This document shows, in pieces, positions 15,330-42,327 of a stretch of DNA of 64,000 nucleotides. The stretch is from Hwanghaeella grinnelliae. Its GTDB lineage: Bacteria > Pseudomonadota > Alphaproteobacteria > UBA8366 > Aestuariispiraceae. A program made the translations under genes and the position numbers. Numbering within the stretch: position 1 is the stretch's first letter; each line of letters opens with the position of its first letter. The notes under the pieces were generated by a model. The model saw nothing but the letters and a program-made list of their open reading frames with translations, made no database searches and was not told the DNA's origin. The stretch lies in NCBI RefSeq assembly GCF_004005845.1, contig NZ_SADE01000002.1, forward strand, positions 1,054,421 to 1,118,420. Direction: 5' to 3'.

Positions 15330-16124
15330 TCAGGCGGTCAGCGCACCGTCGACCCGCAGCTCCACGCCCGAGACATAGGCTGCTTCGTCAGAGGCTAGGA
15401 ACAGGGCCGCATTGGCAATGTCCCAAGCCGTTCCCTGGCGCCCCATAGGCACGGTTGCGGCGCGTTTCGCCGCCAGTTCCTTGGGGGCGGTCTTGCTGTC
15501 GACGAAGGCGCTGACATGGGGGGTGTCGATCACCCCTGGCAGCAGAGCGTTGGCGCGAACCTGATAAGCGGCGTTTTCCCGCGCGACAGATTTGGCGAGG
15601 CGGACCAGCGCCATTTTCGACACTTCGTAGGACGCATAACTGTAGGGGCCGGAATAGACCGCCGCGACAGAAGATACGTAGATCAACGAACCGCTGCCCT
15701 GCGCGCGCATCGCGGGCAGGATAGCCCGGGACATGCGCATCGCGCCGGTCAGGTTGATCTCGAAGACCCGCTCCCAATCCTCATCGGTGGTATCGAAAAC
15801 ACCACCCTGTTGGCTTATGCCCACATTGTAGTCGAGGATGTCGAGGCCGCCCCACAGCGTTTCCATCCTGTCCAGGACCGCGCTGCCCGACTGTGGATCA
15901 GTGACTTCGGTGGCGAGAACCTCGGCGCTGCCGCCTTCGCTGCGAATAACCTCGGCGGTCTTAGCCGCCGCTTCCTCGTTACGGTCGACGCAAAGGACCT
16001 TGGCCCCCTGGCGTGCGAACAGCACCGCGGTCGCCTTGCCGTTGCCCCAGCCATCTCCGACGGAGCCAGCCCCGATGATCGCCGCGCGTTTGCCGGCCAG
16101 TCTGGTTCCCGTTTCCAAGGTCAT
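15330..16124 (-). CDS. short-chain dehydrogenase/reductase (SDR)
   Basis: 264-residue NAD(P)-dependent oxidoreductase. It has a variant nucleotide-binding loop (GAGSVGDGWGNG, with extra glycines compared with the usual TGxxxGIG), Asp/Arg after strand 2 (CVDRN), NVG in place of NNAG, and the catalytic Ser with Tyr-x3-Lys (YEVSK). Its ATG overlaps the TRAP large-subunit stop by 4 bp, so it is the last gene of the ThDP/TRAP operon. By position it may oxidise the hydroxyl group of the imported substrate or of a product of the ThDP enzymes; this is inference. Confidence 0.92.
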   Translation of the reverse strand: MTLETGTRLAGKRAAIIGAGSVGDGWGNGKATAVLFARQGAKVLCVDRNEEAAAKTAEVIRSEGGSAEVLATEVTDPQSGSAVLDRMETLWGGLDILDYNVGISQQGGVFDTTDEDWERVFEINLTGAMRMSRAILPAMRAQGSGSLIYVSSVAAVYSGPYSYASYEVSKMALVRLAKSVARENAAYQVRANALLPGVIDTPHVSAFVDSKTAPKELAAKRAATVPMGRQGTAWDIANAALFLASDEAAYVSGVELRVDGALTA

Positions 16125-17488
16125 GGGCTCAACACCTGATTGGGTAGCCACATGACGATGTTCGGCTGCCAGATAAGAATGAAAAGGACGGCGACCTGCA
16201 GCAATACGAAGGGAACGATCCCACGATAGATATCGGCCATCGAGACCATGTCGCCCGCTGCTCCTTTCATATAGAACAGCGCGAAACCGAAGGGCGGCGT
16301 CAGAAACGACGTTTGCAGGTTCACGGCCACCAGGATGGTGAACCAATAGACAAGGTCTTCCTTGGGAATGAAGTCACCAAGATCCATCAACCCGACAATG
16401 GGTGAGAAAATCGGCAGCAGGATCAGGGTGATTTCGATCCAGTCGAAGAAGAAACCCATGACAAAAACCATGGCCATCATGGTGAACAAAAGGGCCCAGT
16501 CGCCCAAATTCAGGCTTTGCGCGAGGTCGATGATGAAATCGTCCCCACCGATCTTCCGGAAGACATAGGAAAAGGCGGTTGCCGCCGCGAAAATAAAGAA
16601 CAGAAGCCCGATCGTGCGAAGGGAGCTGTCGGTCGCATCTCCAAGGATTTCGCGGCTTAGCCGGCCACGCGCCAAACCCAGTAGCAAGGCGGCGAAGGCG
16701 CCGACGCCGGATGCTTCCGTCGGGCTCGCAATCCCACCGATGATCGACCCAAGCACCGCGATGATCAGGATCAAGGGGAAGGAGACCGAAACGATGGTGT
16801 CCTTGATCAGGCCTTTCTTTTCCTCCGGGGCGATGGCGGCGGGAACAGGGGTCTCGTTCGGCCGGACGATCGACCGCACGACCACATAGACCAGATAAAC
16901 GCCCGCCAGAAACAAGCCCGGCAGGAAGGCCGCGACGAAAACCTTGGCCAGGTTGAGGGAAAGCAGGTCCGACATGAAGACCAGCATGACCGACGGTGGG
17001 ATTAGGATACCCAGCGTGCCGGCGCTGGCGACCGCGCCGGTTGCGAGGGGCGCGGCATAGCCTGCGCGCAGCATGGTGGGCAGCGCCATCACGGTCAGCA
17101 TCACGACCGACGCGCCGATAATGCCGGTCGCGGCGGCAAGGATCGTTCCCATCAGCACCACGGCAAGCGCCAGCCCGCCCGGCACGCGCGCCAAAAGGGT
17201 CTGCAAGGTCAGTAGCAGATCCTCGGCGATCCGGGTCTTTTCCATCACCACACCCATGAAAATAAACATAGGGGCGGCGACAAGGACCGCGTTGTCGACC
17301 ACCGATCCAAATATCCGCGTGGGAATAAGCGAGACGTGCACAAAGCGCATCTCGCCCAATCCCATGGCGATTATCGCGAAGATCAGCGTCACCGCGGTCA
17401 GCACGATGGGGACCGGCAATGCCGTGAAGAGCCCCAGAATGAGGCTCAAGAACATCAGGGCAGGCAGGTATTCGGTCAGCGTTTCCAT
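16121..17488 (-). CDS. dctM: TRAP transporter large permease (DctM)
   Basis: 455-residue, ~12-TM inner-membrane subunit of a TRAP secondary transporter, which couples sodium entry to uptake of an organic acid delivered by the binding protein. Typical sequence includes PMFIFMGVVMEKTRIAEDL, GTILAAATGIIGASVVMLTVMALPTML, a PPSVMLV segment, and the C-terminal FLTPPFGFALFYMKG. It overlaps the small subunit gene by 13 bp and the SDR gene by 4 bp, indicating one transcript. Confidence 0.95.
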   Translation of the reverse strand: METLTEYLPALMFLSLILGLFTALPVPIVLTAVTLIFAIIAMGLGEMRFVHVSLIPTRIFGSVVDNAVLVAAPMFIFMGVVMEKTRIAEDLLLTLQTLLARVPGGLALAVVLMGTILAAATGIIGASVVMLTVMALPTMLRAGYAAPLATGAVASAGTLGILIPPSVMLVFMSDLLSLNLAKVFVAAFLPGLFLAGVYLVYVVVRSIVRPNETPVPAAIAPEEKKGLIKDTIVSVSFPLILIIAVLGSIIGGIASPTEASGVGAFAALLLGLARGRLSREILGDATDSSLRTIGLLFFIFAAATAFSYVFRKIGGDDFIIDLAQSLNLGDWALLFTMMAMVFVMGFFFDWIEITLILLPIFSPIVGLMDLGDFIPKEDLVYWFTILVAVNLQTSFLTPPFGFALFYMKGAAGDMVSMADIYRGIVPFVLLQVAVLFILIWQPNIVMWLPNQVLSP

Positions 17489-18027
17489 AAGCCACGCTCT
17501 ATAAAGGGGTCTGTAAGAAGATCGGGGCGCTTCAATACCGCCAGGATGCGAAGCGCAACCGCCAGGCAGCCGGCGATGGTCAGTACCGCGGAAATCGGAA
17601 TCGCGGATTTGATGATCCAGCGGTAGGGCAGACCCCGACCGCCATTGGCGCCTTCGCCGCGAAGGAAGGCGCGCTCAGCCAGTTCATAGCCGTACCAGGC
17701 GATGAAGGCGAAAAAGGGAATAACCAGAAAAAGGACGACGAAGAATTCGAGCCACAAGCGGAACCGGTCGCTCACCTTATGCGCAAAGACGTCGATGCGC
17801 ACATGGGCGTTCCGGGTATAGGCATAACCGAAGGCGAAGACGGCGACGACACCGTGCAGGTGCCATTCCAAGTCCTGTAAAATGAAGGATCCGGTGGCAA
17901 AGAACTTCCGCCCGATCACATCGTAGATGATGACGAAGACGAGCAGGATCATGACCGCTGCCGCGATCCGCGCAGCCCAGTCGCAGACCCGCGTCAGAAA
18001 ATCCGCCAGTCTCAAACTCGTTTCCAT
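17476..18027 (-). CDS. dctQ: TRAP transporter small permease (DctQ)
   Basis: 183-residue four-TM subunit that partners DctM. It shows the DctQ pattern: an N-terminal TM (AAAVMILLVFVIIYDVIGRKFF), then DLEWHLHGVVAVFAFGYAYTRNAHVRIDVFAH, and a final TM near the C-terminus. It lies 66 bp downstream of the binding-protein gene on the same strand. Confidence 0.93.
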   Translation of the reverse strand: METSLRLADFLTRVCDWAARIAAAVMILLVFVIIYDVIGRKFFATGSFILQDLEWHLHGVVAVFAFGYAYTRNAHVRIDVFAHKVSDRFRLWLEFFVVLFLVIPFFAFIAWYGYELAERAFLRGEGANGGRGLPYRWIIKSAIPISAVLTIAGCLAVALRILAVLKRPDLLTDPFIERGLWKR

Positions 18028-18093
18028 TCGCGTCTCCGTTTCAAAGTTGCGTCCGGGGACGCGATGCCGCGTCCCCGGAGCAAATCAAACTGA

Positions 18094-19131
18094 TCAGTTC
18101 AGGTAACCGATCGACTTCCATTCGGAATAGTTCTCGCGGAAGGTCGCGATGCTTTCCCAGGCGCGTTTGAAGTCCGCGTCCTGTGCCGATTTCTCAGCTG
18201 CGACTTCTTTCCAGGCCTTTTCATACGCGGCCAGGATTTCCGGCGGCCATTGGTGGACCTGAACGCCGTTTTCCTTCTGCATCTTGGCCAGCGGCTCAAG
18301 CTGAACGGCTTCGCCCTCGGCCATCGTCTTCAGGACCTGGGCCTCGCAGGCGGTTTCGATGATCGCCCGCTCCTGATCGCTCAGGTCGTTCCAGGTATCC
18401 AGGTTGATGATCAGGCTCAGGAAACTGGTCTGCTGGTGCCAGCCCGGGAAGTAGTAATGCTTCGCGTGCTCGTACATGCCGACCATGTTGTCCAGGAAGG
18501 GGAAGCCCAGCTCCGCGCTGTCGATCGCACCGGTATTCAGTGCCGACATCGTATCCGCCAGACCCATCGACTGGGCTTCGACGCCCAGCTTCGCCATGAC
18601 CGACGCACCCAGGCCGAAGAAGCGCATCTTCTTGCCCTTCAGGTCGTCGACGGTCTTGACCTCTTCCCGGAACCAGCCGGACGCTTCAGGCACCAGCGTC
18701 GAGCAATGCAAGGTCTTGATGTTGTAGGCTTCCTCGGAGATTTCGGTCCACATCTCGTTGCCGCCGCCATAGTACCACCAGGCTGCGTATTCCTTGATGT
18801 CGGGTCCGAACGGGAAGGTCGTGAAAAGCGGCGCGGAGGGCACGATCCCCTCGGCGAAGCCGATGGAATACCAGGACGCTTCGACAGCGCCGGTGGAAAC
18901 GGCGTCCCAAACTTCACCCGTCGCGACGATTTCGCCCGGGTTCTTCACGTCGAATTTGATACCGCCGGCCGTCAAAGTGTCGACCTTTTCAGCGATGTCC
19001 CAGGCGGGCTTCCCGAGCAGCGGTAGCGTTTGCGGAAAAATCGCCTGCATTTCGATGTCTTTGGCGCTTGCGGCCGTTGACACCATTGCCGCCGCGCAAG
19101 CGGCGATAAGGAACTTGGTCTTCATTGGCAC
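18094..19131 (-). CDS. dctP: TRAP substrate-binding protein, TakP-like
   Basis: 345-residue periplasmic binding protein with an N-terminal signal peptide (MKTKFLIAACAAAMVSTAASA). Its middle section follows the TakP/2-oxo-acid branch of TRAP proteins: ASWYSIGFAEG, FTTFPFGPD, GWFREEVKTVDDLKGKKMRFFGLG, AIDSAELGFPFLDN and KHYYFPGWHQ. TakP of Rhodobacter binds pyruvate and other 2-oxo acids, so a 2-oxo or 2-hydroxy acid is the best guess for the ligand. The subfamily is recognised by pattern memory only. Gene order is binding protein, small subunit, large subunit. Confidence 0.9.
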   Translation of the reverse strand: MPMKTKFLIAACAAAMVSTAASAKDIEMQAIFPQTLPLLGKPAWDIAEKVDTLTAGGIKFDVKNPGEIVATGEVWDAVSTGAVEASWYSIGFAEGIVPSAPLFTTFPFGPDIKEYAAWWYYGGGNEMWTEISEEAYNIKTLHCSTLVPEASGWFREEVKTVDDLKGKKMRFFGLGASVMAKLGVEAQSMGLADTMSALNTGAIDSAELGFPFLDNMVGMYEHAKHYYFPGWHQQTSFLSLIINLDTWNDLSDQERAIIETACEAQVLKTMAEGEAVQLEPLAKMQKENGVQVHQWPPEILAAYEKAWKEVAAEKSAQDADFKRAWESIATFRENYSEWKSIGYLN

Positions 19132-19154
19132 TCCTCCCAGGTTGGTAGTGTGGT

Positions 19155-20891
19155 TCAGGCCACGCGGTCGCCTTTCTTGACTTGCACGGTCCTGTTATCG
19201 ACGGCCGGAAGCATCCGGGCCGGATCTCGTGTAACCATGACGTCGATGACGCTCGGCCGGGATTTCTCGGCAAAGGCCGCTTTCAGCGCGGCTTCAAGCT
19301 CGGACGGGTCCTCGACACGAATGCCATGGCAGCCCATGGCGTCCGCCACTTTCGCGTAGTTCGTTTCGGCAAGTTCGGAACTCTGGTAGTTGCCTTCGCC
19401 GTACATCAGATGCTGCAGCGCCTTGACGTAACCAGACGCGGCGTTGTTCACGACAATCACGGTCAGGCCCAGATTCATGCGGCGCGCCGTCTCCAATTCG
19501 CCGAGGACCATGTTGAACCCGCCATCGCCAGTCAAGCCGACGACAGTGGCTTCCGGGTCCGCCAACTGCGTTCCCATGGCGCCCGGCAAGCCGTAGCCGA
19601 TGGAGGCGAAACCGCGATCGGGCACAAAGCTGCGCCGCGCGGATTTCGAATTGAACAGCAAGCCGCCCCAATGCGCGGCGAAGCCGCCATCGGCGATCAG
19701 ATAGCCGTTCTCTGGCAGGTGATTGTTCAACTCCGTGATCAAACGCGCCATGTTCACCGGCGTTTCGTCGGAATAGAGGCGTTCGGCGGCCACCTCATCA
19801 TGCCACTTCTGCATTTTCGCAGGGATTTCGGCCAGATAGGCTTCGCGGCGTGCGCGCTGATCCGCAGAAGAGGCTTCAAGCGCGTCGGAAAGGTCGTTCA
19901 AACCATCCCGCGCATCGCCCCACAGCTTCATCGCCGGTTCATAGGTCCGTCCCATCTCCTCGGCGACAATGTCCAGGTGAATGACATTTTGCCCCTTTTT
20001 GGGAATGGTGAAACGCTTGGTTGCGATTTCGCCCAATTTACAGCCCGCCACGACGATGCAGTCGCTGGCGGCGATCAGGTCGTTGGCAATCCGGTCATAA
20101 CGACCGAACAGGCCGGCACTGAGCGGCGAGGTGCAGGCGATGGCGCCCTTGCCCGACATGGTGTGGGCGACGGGAATGCCGTTTTTTTCGGCGAAGCGGG
20201 TGACCGCCTCGGTTGCGCCGGAAATATGAATACCGCCGCCGCAAAGCAGGATAGGGCGTTCGGCCTTTGCGATCATTTCCGCGGCCTTGGCGACGGATCC
20301 CGCATCGGGTCGGCAGCGCAGGGACGGCGCTGCTTCATTGGCGGGGTCGACCTCGAAATCGCCTTCCTCAAATCCATACAGACCATGCGCAATGTCTTCC
20401 GGCACGTCGACGATGACGGGGCCCGGCCGACCGCTTGTGGCGACGGCGAAGGCCCGGCGCATGATTTCCGGGATACGGTGGATGGCTTCAACGCGTAGCA
20501 GTTCTTTGCAGGCAGGGCGCAGGATCGAAACCTGGTCGGTTTCCTGCGTCATGTTCTTGCCCGCATGGTCGCGCTGGGCGTCGCCGACGATGGCGACGAT
20601 GGGCGACCCGGCATTCAAGGCTTCGACAAGTCCGGTAACCAGATTGGTCGCGCCCGGTCCAAGCGTCGCGTCGACCAGGCCGACCCGGCCGGAAACCTTG
20701 GCATAGGCATCCGCGGCGAAAACCGCGCAGCGTTCGTCGTTGATCAGGTTGTGGTTCAGGCCCAGGCGGCGCGCCGCGTCATAGAACGGCAGCAATTGAA
20801 ATCCGCCCATGCCGAACATCGGCCCTGCATTGTGCGCCTTCAGCATGCGTACAAGGGCTTCACCACCGGTCATTTCATTGGTCTGGCTCAT
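19155..20891 (-). CDS. ThDP-dependent enzyme, acetolactate synthase-like
   Basis: 578-residue IlvB/benzoylformate-decarboxylase-type thiamin diphosphate enzyme. It contains the N-terminal catalytic glutamate region (NDERCAVFAADAYA), a central domain (PILLCGGGIHISGA) and the C-terminal ThDP/Mg site GDGGFNMVLGELETARRMNLGLTVIVVNN. It is not the biosynthetic ilvI: the context is catabolic and no adjacent ilvH is present. Likely reactions are decarboxylation or carboligation of a 2-oxo acid. Its start overlaps the E1-beta stop by one base (TGATG), so translation is coupled. Confidence 0.9.
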   Translation of the reverse strand: MSQTNEMTGGEALVRMLKAHNAGPMFGMGGFQLLPFYDAARRLGLNHNLINDERCAVFAADAYAKVSGRVGLVDATLGPGATNLVTGLVEALNAGSPIVAIVGDAQRDHAGKNMTQETDQVSILRPACKELLRVEAIHRIPEIMRRAFAVATSGRPGPVIVDVPEDIAHGLYGFEEGDFEVDPANEAAPSLRCRPDAGSVAKAAEMIAKAERPILLCGGGIHISGATEAVTRFAEKNGIPVAHTMSGKGAIACTSPLSAGLFGRYDRIANDLIAASDCIVVAGCKLGEIATKRFTIPKKGQNVIHLDIVAEEMGRTYEPAMKLWGDARDGLNDLSDALEASSADQRARREAYLAEIPAKMQKWHDEVAAERLYSDETPVNMARLITELNNHLPENGYLIADGGFAAHWGGLLFNSKSARRSFVPDRGFASIGYGLPGAMGTQLADPEATVVGLTGDGGFNMVLGELETARRMNLGLTVIVVNNAASGYVKALQHLMYGEGNYQSSELAETNYAKVADAMGCHGIRVEDPSELEAALKAAFAEKSRPSVIDVMVTRDPARMLPAVDNRTVQVKKGDRVA

Positions 20892-21862
20892 CAGGCAACA
20901 CTCTCCATACTCTTGGTCGCGGCACCGGCGATCATATCGGCGGTAACGCGCAGCTTGTCTTCCAAATTGGGGGCATAGGCGATCAGCGACCGGGGGGAAC
21001 CCAGGCGCTGCGGCGGTGACTTGAACGTTGTCGACTGGGCCATGGTCGCCACGACCTCGGCCCCGAAACCGCCGACCGCGACGGATTCATGGGCGACGAT
21101 CAACCGCCCGGTCTTGTTGACGCTTTCCAGCACGGCGGCTTTATCCCAGGGCCAAAGGCTGACGAGGTCTATGACCTCCGCAGAGATGCCTTTTCCCGCC
21201 AAGGTCTCGGCAGCTTCGACACAAAGATTGGCCGTGTGCGACCAGGACACCAGGGTGACGTCGCTTCCGGTGCGGCGGATTTGCGCCTTGCCGAATTCGG
21301 CCTTCAGGCTGGTATCGACCTCACCTTCCATCATCCAGATGTTCTTGTGTTCCAGATACACGACCGGGTCGTCGCATTCGATCGCGGCCCGCATCATGGA
21401 ATAATTGTCCTGCGGCGTGGCCGGGCAGCAGACGACAAGACCCGGGATATGGGCGTACCAACTCTCCAGACTTTGACTGTGCTGCGCCGCGGAGGACCGC
21501 CACATGCCCATCGGCTTGCGGATCACCATCGGCGCGCGGCTTTGCCCACCGAACATGAACCGAGCCTTGGCGATCTGGTTCACCAACTCGTCGGTGGCGC
21601 AAAGCGCGAAGTCGGCGAAGCGCATCTCCACGATGGGACGCGTGCCCACCAAGGCCGCGCCGAAGGCGGCGCCCATGATGCAGGCTTCAGAAATGGGGGC
21701 ATCGGAAATGCGTTTCGGTCCGAATTCCTCGGGCAGGCCGGCATATTGCTTGAACACGCCACCGCGTCCCAAGTCTTCGCCGACGCACCAAACGCGGTCA
21801 TCCGCGCGCATTGCTTCCGCCACGGCGAGGCGCGCCGCTTCCGCATAAGTCATCACGGTCAT
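20891..21862 (-). CDS. 2-oxo acid dehydrogenase / acetoin dehydrogenase E1 beta subunit
   Basis: 323-residue transketolase-like beta subunit of a heterotetrameric ThDP dehydrogenase. Visible motifs include the ThDP-pyrimidine region (EDLGRGGVFKQYAGL, DAPISEACIMGAAFGAALVG), PIVEMRFADF, and the C-terminal domain SLWPWDKAAVLESVNKTGRLIVAHESVAVGGFGAEV. It is coupled to the alpha subunit gene by a one-base stop/start overlap. No E2 (lipoyl acyltransferase) gene is adjacent. Confidence 0.93.
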   Translation of the reverse strand: MTVMTYAEAARLAVAEAMRADDRVWCVGEDLGRGGVFKQYAGLPEEFGPKRISDAPISEACIMGAAFGAALVGTRPIVEMRFADFALCATDELVNQIAKARFMFGGQSRAPMVIRKPMGMWRSSAAQHSQSLESWYAHIPGLVVCCPATPQDNYSMMRAAIECDDPVVYLEHKNIWMMEGEVDTSLKAEFGKAQIRRTGSDVTLVSWSHTANLCVEAAETLAGKGISAEVIDLVSLWPWDKAAVLESVNKTGRLIVAHESVAVGGFGAEVVATMAQSTTFKSPPQRLGSPRSLIAYAPNLEDKLRVTADMIAGAATKSMESVA

Positions 21863-22851
21863 CAGAACGCCTCCTGCGCGGGCGAACCCACGTCCTGCAC
21901 ATCGTTGAATACGGTATCGTCGGCCGGCCAGGGCGCGGCTTTCGCTGCGTCCAGCGCCGCCTGCATTTCAGCGGTGGCCGTCGTGCGGACGGCGTCCAGG
22001 TCCGTTTCGGACACACCGGCTTCCTGAAGCAATTCGCGCTGTCGTGAGACCGGGTCGCTTTCGCGGCGCATGCGGTCGGCTTCCCCTTCGGGGCGATAGG
22101 TAGCCGGGTCGAAATAGGTGTGACCATCCAGCCGATAGGTCTTCGCAAGCATGAATTCCGGCTTTCCGGTCGCGCGGATGCGGGCGATGATTTCGGCCGA
22201 TTTCGTCGCGATTTCCTCGACATCGTTGCCGTCGATCTCGGTCACCGGCAGGCCGATGGCCCGGGCGCGGTCGGCGACATTGCCGGATGTCATATCGGAT
22301 GTCTTGGTGGATGCCGAATACTGGTTGTCTTCGCAAACGAACAGGATCGGTAGTTCAAAAACCCCCGCCCAGTTGATGCCTTCCAGGAAGGGCCCGCGAT
22401 TGGCCGCGCCGTCGCCGAAGAAACAGACAGTGACCTGGTCGCCGCCCAGAAGCTTCACCCCGTGGGCCGCACCGGCGGCGATGGTGATATTGGCGGAGAC
22501 GACACCATTCGCGCCCAACATGCCGACACCGAAATCGGCGATATGCATGGACCCGCCCTTGCCGCCGCAGCATCCGCCTTCGCGGCCGAGAAGTTCCTTC
22601 ATCATCGCCGTAGCGTCAGCGCCTTTGGCCAGGGTGTGGCCGTGCCCGCGATGCGTCGATGTGATGTAATCGTCTTTGCGAAGGGACTCGGTCACGCCCA
22701 CGGCGACCGCTTCCTGGCCGATTGAAAGATGTATCGCGCCTAGAACCAATTCTTCTTCCACCGCCGCATGGCGGGCGGTTTCTTCGAAAGCGCGTATGCG
22801 CTCCATCAGGGTCAGTCGGGCCAACCCTCGTTCGACGTCAAAATTACGCAC
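21862..22851 (-). CDS. 2-oxo acid dehydrogenase / acetoin dehydrogenase E1 alpha subunit
   Basis: 329-residue alpha subunit. The ThDP-binding motif GDGAANRG...CEDNQYS is complete, preceded by STHRGHGHTLAKG and the GGKGGSMHIAD loop typical of AcoA/PdhA. First gene after the iclR gene on the minus strand, with a 2-bp gap. Together with the beta subunit it would decarboxylate a 2-oxo acid or cleave an acetoin-like compound and pass the acyl group to a lipoyl carrier. The carrier must be encoded elsewhere, for example with the sucB/lpd proteins; this is inference. Confidence 0.93.
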   Translation of the reverse strand: MRNFDVERGLARLTLMERIRAFEETARHAAVEEELVLGAIHLSIGQEAVAVGVTESLRKDDYITSTHRGHGHTLAKGADATAMMKELLGREGGCCGGKGGSMHIADFGVGMLGANGVVSANITIAAGAAHGVKLLGGDQVTVCFFGDGAANRGPFLEGINWAGVFELPILFVCEDNQYSASTKTSDMTSGNVADRARAIGLPVTEIDGNDVEEIATKSAEIIARIRATGKPEFMLAKTYRLDGHTYFDPATYRPEGEADRMRRESDPVSRQRELLQEAGVSETDLDAVRTTATAEMQAALDAAKAAPWPADDTVFNDVQDVGSPAQEAF

Positions 22852-22853
22852 GG

Positions 22854-23633
22854 TCAGAACAACTCCTCTTGTTCAAGAATGCTCGTCTTTTCGGACAGCA
22901 CCGCAGCTTCCTCCCGCAACAGCGGGACCAATTCGCTCTCGATGCGTTCGATAGCCATCCTGTCGTTAATCGCACCTATCCCGATGGCGGCGATCAGCCT
23001 GCCGGACCGGGTGATGATCGGCAGCGCCACGGCGCTCATGCCCGGGATCACGATCGATGGGTTCAAGGCATAGCCGCGGCGATGAAAATCCGCGCAGCAT
23101 TCCTCGGCCAGTTCGGGGGTGACGTTGAAATCGGCCATCCAGCTCTTATTCGCCTGGGCGGCCGCTTTGCGTTTGGATTCGGGCATGGATGCATACAGTG
23201 CCTGGGCCGTCGCCCCGGCGCCCAGCGGCACGCGGTCGCCGGCATCGATGGTCAGGGTCCGGATCGGGAAGGCGCCCAATTCCCGGCGCACGCAGATAGA
23301 CACCGCGCCTTCCGGGGCTGACAGGAAAATCGTATCGCCGCTGGCATCCGCCAGGCGCCGCATGCTGCGCTTTGCCAAGGCCGCCAAGTCCGATCGGCTG
23401 GCGGTGCGGGCGATTTTCGCCAATACGCTGCCCAGATGATACCGCCGGTTATCGGGGTCCTGATAGACGTAGTGCACGTCCAGAAGCGAGGTCAGCACGC
23501 GGTGTGTGGTGGTTTTTGTGAATTCGGTGCGCGCCATGATTTCCGTCAGGCTGGCGCCCAATGGCGCCTCGCTCAAGGCGGATAAGACGCGGCTGGCGCG
23601 CGCGATCGACCCTACCGGCGTTGCTGACGGCAC
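22854..23633 (-). CDS. IclR family transcriptional regulator
   Basis: 259 residues. The N-terminal winged helix-turn-helix is at about residues 8-65 (SIARASRVLSALSEAPLGASLTEIMARTEFTKTTTHRVL), and the IclR effector domain follows to the C-terminus (DGDTIFLS-like strand, GATAQALYA). It starts at GTG 23633, preceded by a perfect AGGAGG ribosome site. It is the first gene of the minus-strand ThDP/TRAP operon and divergent from the two-repeat protein gene. The intergenic palindrome at 23653-23669 is a likely operator. Confidence 0.95.
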   Translation of the reverse strand: MPSATPVGSIARASRVLSALSEAPLGASLTEIMARTEFTKTTTHRVLTSLLDVHYVYQDPDNRRYHLGSVLAKIARTASRSDLAALAKRSMRRLADASGDTIFLSAPEGAVSICVRRELGAFPIRTLTIDAGDRVPLGAGATAQALYASMPESKRKAAAQANKSWMADFNVTPELAEECCADFHRRGYALNPSIVIPGMSAVALPIITRSGRLIAAIGIGAINDRMAIERIESELVPLLREEAAVLSEKTSILEQEELF

Positions 23634-23652
23634 GTGACTTCCTCCTGAACTG

Positions 23653-23669
23653 TTCCGTTATTCGGAACT
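23653..23669. promoter_or_regulatory. candidate IclR operator palindrome
   Basis: Perfect inverted repeat GTTCCG-TTATT-CGGAAC in the 95-bp gap between iclR and the divergent two-repeat protein gene. The 6-bp arms and 5-bp AT-rich spacer resemble operators of IclR-family regulators. Its position could control both transcription directions. Confidence 0.6.
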
Positions 23670-23728
23670 ATTGTGCCGATAATAAGAACCAGTTGTCCAA
23701 ACGAGTCAAACGCAATACCAATATCCTC

Positions 23729-24520
23729 ATGCAAAAGGACCACCTGTTACTGAACTCGATCACCGATGCGGACGGCACCGCGCCAGGGCGGATCGCCGTT
23801 TCCGGCTCCCATGGCGGGCTTTACGCAGCCGCGGTAGCGTCGCGCGCGGGCTTGCGCGCGGTTGTGCTGAACGATGCGGGGCGGGGCTTGGACGATGCCG
23901 GGATCGCCGGGGTTAAGGCGCTAAGCGATGTCGGCATGGCGGCTTGCGCGGTGGATTGCATGACAGCCGAAATCGGCTCCGCCGTGGATATGGCAGAGAA
24001 CGGGATGATCTCGTTCGCGAACGAAATGGCGGCGGGCTTTGACGTCGCGGTGGGGCAAACCGTCGCAGAAGCGCTGGAAAGGCTCGCCAATGCACCGGAG
24101 CCGTCCGGGATGATGGACGCGATCCCGGAGGCCCGCTGGGACGAGAAGGTTGGCGCGCATCAAGTGCTCTGCGTCGACTCCGCTTCCCTGATCAAGCCGG
24201 AGGATGCGGGCCGTATCATCGTGACGGGCTCACACGGCGGGTTGATTGGCGGGGATCCAGCGCGGGCCTGCAAGGCGGAGGCTTTTTTCGTCAGCTATTC
24301 CGATGCGGGTCGGGGCAAGAACGATATCGGCCTGTCCCGTTTGCCGGCGCTAGACCAGCGCGACATCGCCGCCGTTACCTTGGACTGCAATACCTGTCTG
24401 ATCGGAAGTGCCGCTTCCGCACTGACGACCGGCCGGATTTCCGCCGTCAACAAGACCGCCGCGGCGTTGGGTGCCGCCATAGGGCAACCGCTTGCTGAGT
24501 TTTTAGCTGGCTTGTCCTGA
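23729..24520 (+). CDS. unrecognised protein made of two internal repeats
   Basis: 263 residues from ATG 23729; the longer frame upstream crosses the operator and is unlikely to be translated. Residues ~20-120 and ~161-262 are clearly homologous to each other. Both contain GRI-x-V-x-GSHGGL (His28/His169), DAGRG (Asp49/Asp192), a D-C pair (Cys77/Cys220), IGSA, and a closing G-Q-x-x-x-E-x-L segment. There is no signal peptide or TM segment, so it is probably cytoplasmic. It is divergent from the IclR/ThDP operon and may act on the same substrate. I do not recognise the family and assign no function. Confidence 0.8.
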   Translation: MQKDHLLLNSITDADGTAPGRIAVSGSHGGLYAAAVASRAGLRAVVLNDAGRGLDDAGIAGVKALSDVGMAACAVDCMTAEIGSAVDMAENGMISFANEMAAGFDVAVGQTVAEALERLANAPEPSGMMDAIPEARWDEKVGAHQVLCVDSASLIKPEDAGRIIVTGSHGGLIGGDPARACKAEAFFVSYSDAGRGKNDIGLSRLPALDQRDIAAVTLDCNTCLIGSAASALTTGRISAVNKTAAALGAAIGQPLAEFLAGLS

Positions 24521-24734: not shown

Positions 24735-25019
24735 ATGTCCTTCCTTCATAGTCGCGTTGAGGCGACTTCACAGACCGCTTGTTTCAGCGTGGTCGGCGTT
24801 GCCGACCCGAACCTTCTACACCGTCTTCTTGAACCTTTCGCCAAGCGGGGGCTGATACCGTCCCGCGTGCACGCGGATACCGACCCGGAAGACCGCTTGC
24901 TTGTGGATATTCAAGTTGGCGATATGGATCAGGATCTGGCCGGTCGGATCGGTGCGGGACTGCGCCAGGTGATCGGTGTTGAACTGGTCCTCGTCTCGTC
25001 CAAGGCGCAATGCATCTGA
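24735..25019 (+). CDS. small ACT-domain-like protein
   Basis: 94 residues from ATG 24735, beginning MSFLHSRVEATSQTACFSVVGVADPNLLHRLLEPFAKRG. The strand-helix-strand pattern (ACFSVVGVADPNLLHRLLEPFAKRGLIPSRVHAD, then LLVDIQVGD, then a helix and a final strand VELVLVSSK) fits a stand-alone ACT domain, as in regulatory subunits that bind amino acids. It lies 22 bp upstream of the Nudix gene and is probably in an operon with it. The ligand is unknown. The longer frame upstream has no family sequence. Confidence 0.65.
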   Translation: MSFLHSRVEATSQTACFSVVGVADPNLLHRLLEPFAKRGLIPSRVHADTDPEDRLLVDIQVGDMDQDLAGRIGAGLRQVIGVELVLVSSKAQCI

Positions 25020-41028: not shown

Positions 41029-42327
41029 ATGGCGACGGAAGTGCACGTACCGACGCTTGGTGAGTCGGTTTCAGAAGCAAGTATCATGCGGTGGTTCAAA
41101 AAGCCCGGAGAAGCCGTGGCTGTCGATGAATCGCTGGTCGAGCTGGAAACCGACAAAGTGACTGTGGAGGTCCCATCCCCTGTGGCTGGCACCCTGTCGG
41201 ATATTGCCGCGGAGGAGGGCGCCGAGGTCGAGGTGGGTGCGCTTTTGTGCACAATCGCCGAAGGTGCCGCGGCACCTGCCCCTAAAGAGGAGGCCCCTAA
41301 GGCGGAGGCACCGAAAGAGGAAGCCCCCAAGCCGGCAGCTGAAAAGCCTGCTGAAGCAGCACCGGCCCCTGCAGCGGCGCCGGCCAGCAATGACACGCTT
41401 TCACCGGCTGTCGCGAAGATGGTCACGGAAAATGATCTCGATGCGTCGAAAATTCCGGCGACGGGTCCGAAGGGCAACCTGACCAAGGAAGACGTGCAGA
41501 ATTTCCTCAGCGGTGGTGGGGCCAAGGCCGCGCCTGCTGCGAAGGCGCCTGCCGCAGCGCCGGTCGGTGGACCGAAGCCGCCGGTCGCGACTTACGAACC
41601 GTTGCCGGATCGGCCCATGGATCCGCGTGGTGAAGAACGCGTCCGGATGCCGAAGCTGCGCAAGGTCATCGCGACGCGTTTGAAGGAAGCTCAGAACACA
41701 GCGGCTATGTTGACCACGTTCAACGAAATCGACATGACCGCGATGATGGAGCTTCGCAAGGACTACAAGGACAAGTTTGAGAAGAAGCACAATGTGAAGC
41801 TGGGCTTCATGAGTTTCTTCGTGAAGGCATCGGTGATCGCGCTTCAAGAACTGCCCGCGGTGAATGCGGAGATCTATGGCGATGAGATCATCTATAAGAA
41901 TTACTACGATATCGGCATTGCCGTCGGCACGCCGTCGGGTCTTGTCGTCCCTGTGCTGCGTGACGCGGACAAGAAGAGCTTCGCCGAAATCGAGGGAACG
42001 ATCGCCGATTTCGGACGCCGCGCCCGTGACGGCAAGCTCAGCATGGCCGAGATGATGGGCGGTACCTTCACGATCACCAATGGCGGTGTTTTCGGCTCGC
42101 TGATGTCGACGCCGATCATCAACCCGCCGCAGTCCGGCATTCTGGGCATGCACAAAATCCAGAAGCGTCCGATCTGCGATGCCGAAGGCAATATCGTGGT
42201 CGGTAACATGATGTATGTGGCCCATTCCTACGATCACCGCATCATCGACGGTCGCGAGGCGGTGACCTACCTCGTGCGCCTGAAAGAAATGCTGGAAGAC
42301 CCGGCCCGCCTGCTGCTGGACGTTTGA
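41029..42327 (+). CDS. sucB: 2-oxoglutarate dehydrogenase E2, dihydrolipoyl succinyltransferase
   Basis: 432 residues from ATG 41029. The lipoyl domain (1-80) has the lipoylated Lys in [14 protein letters not shown]. An Ala/Pro/Glu/Lys-rich linker (about 83-125) and the E3/E1-binding domain ([32 protein letters not shown]) follow. The catalytic domain ends with the active-site [14 protein letters not shown]. There is one lipoyl domain, as usual. The linker is Ala/Pro/Glu-rich and does not resemble the AKK tails of Mdh and SucA. Confidence 0.98.

Follow-up and report, generated by a model that had tools for sequence, protein, structure and literature searches.

Locus and neighbouring catabolic island

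The window, a stretch of 64,000 nucleotides from Hwanghaeella grinnelliae, contains a gene for a two-domain protein beside an island of IclR, ThDP and TRAP genes (Table 1). A first-pass annotation of the DNA had described this open reading frame with coordinates and a length that were all correct, and its divergent orientation to the island is confirmed in the window. The ATG start has an identical position in ten of ten aligned loci (the window and nine Rhodobacteraceae-type loci, L019-L027); a longer frame from 23561 is also open.

Table 1. Features of the locus. Positions refer to the window.
Feature	Position	Strand	Remarks
Two-domain protein gene	23729..24520	+	263 residues plus stop
N-terminal half, residues 1-126: Ser27-His28, Asp49, Asn98	23729..24106	+	profile alignment, conservation
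C-terminal half, residues 127-263: Asp150, Ser168-His169, Asp192, Asn241	24107..24517	+	profile alignment, conservation
Palindrome GTTCCG-TTATT-CGGAAC, candidate IclR operator	23652..23668	.	between divergent genes
IclR-family regulator	22854..23633	-	
E1-alpha-type ThDP subunit	21862..22851	-	
E1-beta-type ThDP subunit	20891..21862	-	
Acetolactate-synthase-type ThDP enzyme	19155..20891	-	
TRAP solute-binding protein	18094..19131	-	PDB neighbours are keto-acid-binding proteins
TRAP small permease (DctQ)	17476..18027	-	
TRAP large permease (DctM)	16121..17488	-	
Short-chain dehydrogenase (SDR)	15330..16124	-	

A candidate for the operator region that the gene was thought to share with the island is present: a conserved palindrome is located between the two-domain gene and the IclR gene. 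Its core, TTCC and TCGGAA, is invariant in ten of ten loci, where column identity averages 64%. The automated repeat search did not list this palindrome. The IclR regulator may bind here.

The acetolactate-synthase-type enzyme keeps the glutamate that activates ThDP. For the TRAP binding protein, the closest PDB entries are a ketoacid-binding protein (7ug8) and TakP (2hzk). Arg177, Glu214, Gln156, Glu240, Tyr100 and Trp215, the latter as a main-chain contact, are named as ligand residues of TakP (PMC1839085). Of these, Arg177 and Glu214 are retained in the island protein, Gln156 is replaced by Glu, Glu240 by Gln and Trp215 by Leu, and no residue clearly corresponds to Tyr100. An E2 gene (PF00198) is absent from the island. 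The genome has two matches, one in the window at 41629-42318, about 17 kb beyond the two-domain gene, and one on contig C1. Since the island lacks an E2, the E1 pair would borrow one or work alone. Acetoin:DCPIP oxidoreductase is the E1 pair of acetoin dehydrogenase. With ThDP it can both split and couple alpha-diketones, the latter as 'acetylacetoin synthase' (PMC8541089). Such ThDP chemistry thus exists and offers a model for an E1 pair working without its own E2. An acetoin identity is not implied: the island E1 genes have their best matches with pyruvate dehydrogenase (PDH) E1 models, under the cut-off.

The island (15330-24520) looks imported, judging from sequence comparisons. Neither its two-domain gene nor its ThDP gene occurs in any of 13 genomes from the family of the window, which include one from the same genus, and its ThDP protein shares 80-90% identity with those of the nine Rhodobacteraceae-type loci. 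An open reading frame of 94 residues downstream (24735-25019) marks the right edge of the island. By eye it resembles an ACT-type regulatory domain, and it has no Pfam match. Relatives occur in 30 of 59 related genomes, including 10 of the 13 genomes from the family of the window that lack the island. A function as a regulatory subunit of the ThDP enzyme was rejected, as this presence is independent of the ThDP gene.

Paired residues, predicted fold and kinship

The two halves of the protein are homologous and represent a duplicated domain, as claimed in the first-pass annotation. In hhalign, they align with a probability of 100, an E-value of 6.9e-44 and 39% identity over 117 profile columns. 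Their local BLOSUM62 score of 180 compares with 35.7 on average (SD 6.5, maximum 71) in 2000 shuffles.

A 90-row alignment, which includes the window protein, supports the reading of a duplicated domain with matched conserved residues. The annotation had placed His28/169, Asp49/192 and Cys77/220 correctly. The His and Asp pairs are invariant (90 of 90 rows), the Cys pair is variable: position 77 is Cys in 16 and His in 52 of 90 rows, and position 220 is Cys in 39 and Ala in 31 of 90 rows. Cys is therefore not supported as part of the conserved site and was rejected as a catalytic residue. The proposed set was also incomplete. Ser27/168 and Asn98/241 are invariant in 90 of 90 rows, and so are Gly83/226, Asp150 and Asp159. 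Where the window protein has IGSA, most relatives have IGD, with Asp in 73 and 63 of 90 rows. In a two-domain member at locus L158 (1090-1908), GAEG replaces the SHG motif in the first half, and the motif is largely retained in the second (VHGG). One of the two sites may be dispensable, going by this loss.

The duplication is only part of the picture, since free single-domain relatives exist. In 30 loci, 25 genes were marked, 24 of them single-domain (117-141 residues) and one two-domain (L158); the gene caller missed the relative in the other five loci (L142, L147, L148, L151 and L152). Ser, His and Asn are conserved in 25 of 25 aligned single-domain proteins and Asp in 24. Because these free relatives keep the same residues, one half is an autonomous unit. 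The fused protein may represent a covalent pseudo-dimer that mimics a dimer of the single-domain form. A half-size protein from L110 had matches at E <= 0.001 in 40 of 200 genomes from the bacterial family of G303, at least four of the 40 being weak fragments. In seven of the 40 genomes, two adjacent matches represent the two-domain form (G457, G536, G554, G582, G586, G633 and G644).

The AlphaFold2 model of the two-domain protein (90 rows) has a mean pLDDT of 96.6 and a pTM of 0.92, and the order of strands and helices is much alike in both halves. A single-domain relative (25 rows) was modelled with a pLDDT of 88.9 and a pTM of 0.85. With Foldseek, neither model matched a PDB entry at E <= 0.001. 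VIA-align placed the DUF1805 protein TA1206 of Thermoplasma acidophilum (1qw2) first for both, with Z 8.2 and an rmsd of 3.1 over 95 of 102 residues for the two-domain model and Z 7.1 and an rmsd of 3.6 over 81 residues for the single-domain model; the runners-up reached Z 5.5 and 5.3, respectively, and best Z values of 7-8 are common without kinship for models that lack a clear Foldseek match.

The first-pass annotation did not recognise the family. This stands insofar as no match to a known enzyme family was found, and is modified by a probable distant kinship to DUF1805. None of the libraries searched contains a dedicated model for the family, and the catabolic operon in which it sits is of a general type already known. 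The window protein reached no Pfam cut-off (DUF1805, PF08827, 17 bits versus 29.5) and came close to none among the NCBIfam models. Searching the PDB with phmmer gave nothing at E <= 10 for the window protein, and profile searches with 16 and 90 rows gave nothing below E 0.1. DUF1805 matches at E <= 1 were obtained for 80 of the 90 aligned members (best 8e-9). Among 20 members scanned singly, 11 matched at E <= 0.001, nine of them under the cut-off, mostly from profile position 8 or 10 to 60-64 of 64. Two of the 20 relatives passed the cut-off, L002 with 31.2 and L028 with 34.5 bits, which is not proof, as L033 passes the IMS cut-off on a partial match. A small DUF1805 profile of four plasmid sequences and 1qw2 aligned with only the last 27-34 residues of the halves, at probabilities of 17-32; the Pfam model does better than this five-sequence profile. 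The single-member Pfam scans of the 20 relatives raise the odds of kinship.

The two-domain family is thus likely, not proven, distant kin of DUF1805, and probably a duplicated, much-changed branch of this fold. DUF1805 proteins such as TA1206 and YunC-like proteins have one domain, the window protein has two. They lack the SHG and NDAG motifs of the two-domain family, and the GYxMC motif of L125-L128, GYAMC in 1qw2, is absent from the window protein. The DUF1805 model matched none of 150 genomes of the phylum, including the genome of the window. A search of literature listings, TA1206/1QW2 and YunC included, gave no function and no enzyme activity for DUF1805. Since no function is known for DUF1805 itself, the kinship is not a match to a known enzyme family. 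The listings, mostly from outside subscription journals, held no work on the two-domain family either. In two plasmid records labelled Stenotrophomonas rhizophila (L129, CP031730.1; CP065518.1), the DUF1805 gene scores the same as that of Lysinibacillus fusiformis pMGMM7, and L129 shares its neighbouring gene order with L126. Both records are likely mislabelled or contaminated.

Other kinships were rejected. The Y-family polymerase model IMS (PF00817) matched 66 of 90 members at E <= 1 (best 7.1e-7), over a short helix stretch only. For the window protein, the match was restricted to residues 90-119 (12.3 bits versus a cut-off of 23.2), and one of 20 members scanned passed the cut-off (L033, 24.7 versus 23.2, over 37 of 148 profile positions). 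UPF0227 matched 22 and Abhydrolase_6 eight of 90 members, and alpha/beta-hydrolase kinship was likewise dismissed. A scan for close relatives by pattern found none in viruses, and a viral fold library gave none at E <= 0.001.

Distribution and genomic settings

Members of the family occur in Pseudomonadota, Actinomycetota, Planctomycetota and haloarchaea. The two-domain gene is present in 18 of the 59 related genomes. In a scan of the phylum, 9 of 398 genomes matched and 6 of 398 were counted as true carriers; of the weak matches, G207 and a second place in G423 were read and resemble, by eye, hydrolases with a nucleophile elbow, and G349 and G438, whose matches are similarly weak, were excluded as well. 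Matches were also found in 13 plasmid records, including haloarchaea, Rhodococcus, Rhizobium and Aminobacter, 12 of them annotated as 'hypothetical protein' and one unannotated. A scan of named genomes yielded 274 loci encoding a relative, and the counts for named loci given here rest on the best 80 of these.

The nine Rhodobacteraceae-type loci all keep the two-domain gene, the IclR gene, the E1 pair, the ThDP gene and three TRAP genes, with the same order of IclR, E1, ThDP and TRAP genes; seven also have an SDR match. The co-occurrence with the ThDP cluster, raised in the first-pass annotation, was found in 16 of 16 ThDP-bearing genomes among the 59 and in 58 of the 80 named loci (ThDP gene with >= 55% identity). 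E1-alpha was found in 51 of the 80, ThDP and/or E1-alpha in 64, both in 45 and neither in 16, with loci cut by contig ends scored as misses. In 61 of the 80, a ThDP or E1-alpha gene is located within 1.5 kb of the two-domain gene. A count of neighbouring genes, covering 89 of 95 loci (L035, L042, L057, L080, L093 and L096 were left out), found the ThDP gene near the relative in 58 of 89.

Across the 59 related genomes, with the ThDP gene called at E <= 1e-150 and E1-alpha at E <= 1e-75, 16 have both genes, two have the two-domain gene alone, none has the ThDP gene alone and 41 have neither. Fisher's test gave a p-value of 1.4e-12, and 1.5e-10 after dropping the 13 genomes from the family of the window that have neither gene; both values are optimistic, as the 59 genomes are related. 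The two carriers without a ThDP gene, G027 and G053, are assemblies of 70% and 77% completeness. E1-alpha occurs in 12 of the 59 genomes, every one a carrier of the two-domain gene. In G037, the two genes are on different contigs, the two-domain gene being at least 34 kb away from both ends of its contig. Because both genes are kept on separate contigs there, the link is more than positional. On a 98-row tree, the ThDP label requires at least 12 changes, seven of them forced by starred branches, where shuffled labels need 18.9 on average. This indicates a clustered link that has nonetheless been gained or lost, or overlooked because of contig ends, on several occasions.

Relatives also stand in other settings. 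On the three haloarchaeal plasmids viewed out of five with a hit (L117, L118 and L124), the relative is accompanied by genes for TRAP, SDR, a RuBisCO-like protein and a four-carbon acid sugar kinase. The neighbours in L117 have their best matches with OiaX (516 bits) and OiaK (441 bits) of the apionate pathway, and in L113 an OiaX/OiaK-like pair scores 454 and 536 bits and is joined by a PF16896 dehydrogenase; all four scores are below the cut-off of 700. L118 and L124 have the same RuBisCO-like/kinase pair by annotation. OiaK is a kinase and OiaX a RuBisCO-like protein, and the two-domain protein is neither. Relatives in Rhizobium, Rhodococcus and Methylovirgula have SDR genes close by, and those in Rhizobium and Rhodococcus have acyl-CoA genes as well. 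Single-domain genes are often near genes that by eye resemble those for TctC/Bug binding proteins. Besides Bug/TctC, further settings include AMP-ligase, beta-oxidation and hydantoinase-like genes.

Proposed function and alternatives

The two-domain protein is probably an enzyme of the catabolic pathways in which it stands. Our tentative proposal is a soluble enzyme in which two DUF1805-like domains are fused and which belongs to a family not yet described. Each half would hold one Ser-His/Asp/Asn site, giving two sites per protein, and catalysis may proceed without an organic cofactor. The protein would be part of the adjoining island for 2-oxo acid catabolism and co-regulated with it by IclR. 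A 2-oxo acid would be imported by the TRAP transporter, and the ThDP enzyme would carboligate it, yielding an alpha-hydroxy-beta-oxo acid of the acetolactate type. The two-domain enzyme may decarboxylate or isomerise this acid to an acyloin, which the E1-alpha/beta pair and the SDR would break down further. The duplication, the invariant residues, the confident fold model, the co-occurrence of the genes and the conserved palindrome are observed; we infer every chemical step of this pathway. Taken as a whole, a two-site enzyme acting on an alpha-hydroxy-beta-oxo acid made by the ThDP enzyme is possible, with considerable doubt.

An alpha-hydroxy-beta-oxo acid was chosen because it is the one nameable substrate type that fits both the ThDP and the OiaK/OiaX settings, and it may be common to both. 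3-Oxo-isoapionate, the substrate named for OiaX and OiaK, is a hydroxylated analogue of acetolactate. According to PMC6302742, such RuBisCO-like proteins decarboxylate or transcarboxylate 3-oxo-isoapionate-4-phosphate. Rather unlikely is the wider idea of a cofactor-free enzyme family of fused single-site domains for acids like acetolactate and 3-oxo-isoapionate, coupled by bacteria and haloarchaea to ThDP enzymes or RuBisCO-like/kinase branches. If true, this would be the first reaction assigned to the DUF1805-like fold.

Acetolactate decarboxylase (AlsD/BudA, PF03306) is similar in size to the two-domain protein and acts on the proposed substrate class. Its Pfam model matched neither the window protein nor the 90 relatives at E <= 1. 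The model is also absent from 59 of 59 genomes, which is uninformative as it is missing with and without the two-domain gene alike.

Several observations speak against the proposed two-site enzyme and its pathway. The relatives in Bug/TctC, AMP-ligase, beta-oxidation and hydantoinase-like settings point to a wider role, and 16 of 80 named loci lack both the ThDP and the E1-alpha gene. Furthermore, the OiaX/OiaK-like proteins score below the cut-off, the first half of L158 lacks SHG and TakP ligands are exchanged in the TRAP protein. A catabolic enzyme of another kind, such as a lactonase, hydrolase or tautomerase acting on the substrate or product of an SDR, is a serious possibility. It would have been recruited to several unrelated pathways, with the ThDP pathway as the most frequent one in the alphaproteobacterial loci covered. 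By raw count, 24 of 89 loci have an SDR gene no more than seven genes away, and 11 have one no more than two genes away. An SDR gene is adjacent or one to two genes away in L062, L110, L117, L120, L121 and L122, and in L110 the SDR and single-domain genes overlap by 4 bases. However, SDR genes are common anyway, and the ThDP link is far stronger, both in the 89 loci and by co-occurrence in the 59 genomes.

The way in which the gene follows the ThDP gene across the 59 genomes would also suit a non-enzymatic protein that serves the ThDP enzyme or the E1 pair as an accessory, regulatory or chaperone subunit. This is unlikely, given that 22 of 80 named loci have no ThDP gene in their flanks, though some are cut by contig ends, and that haloarchaeal L117, L118 and L124 show none in the annotated stretch. 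The invariant Ser, His, Asp and Asn in both halves suggest chemistry. Their symmetry across the halves also argues against a non-catalytic sensor or carrier of small catabolic intermediates. Such a function would agree with the varied pathway settings and with the related DUF1805, for which the literature listings show no enzyme activity, but the Pfam and NCBIfam hits of the window protein and 90 relatives include no DNA-binding or signalling domain; a sensor or carrier is unlikely.

For the proposed two-site catabolic enzyme, whether there are two sites or one can be tested directly, thanks to the paired invariant sites and the existence of free single-domain forms. A family annotated only as 'hypothetical' in the records covered, with 274 loci in one genome collection, is bound to a conserved ThDP pathway. 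Its reaction, once found, would name this pathway and could give the DUF1805-like fold a first function.

In L033 and L039, the relatives have TRAP genes as neighbours together with a ThDP enzyme distinct from that of the window, with which it shares 31% identity. This setting perhaps represents a parallel pathway.
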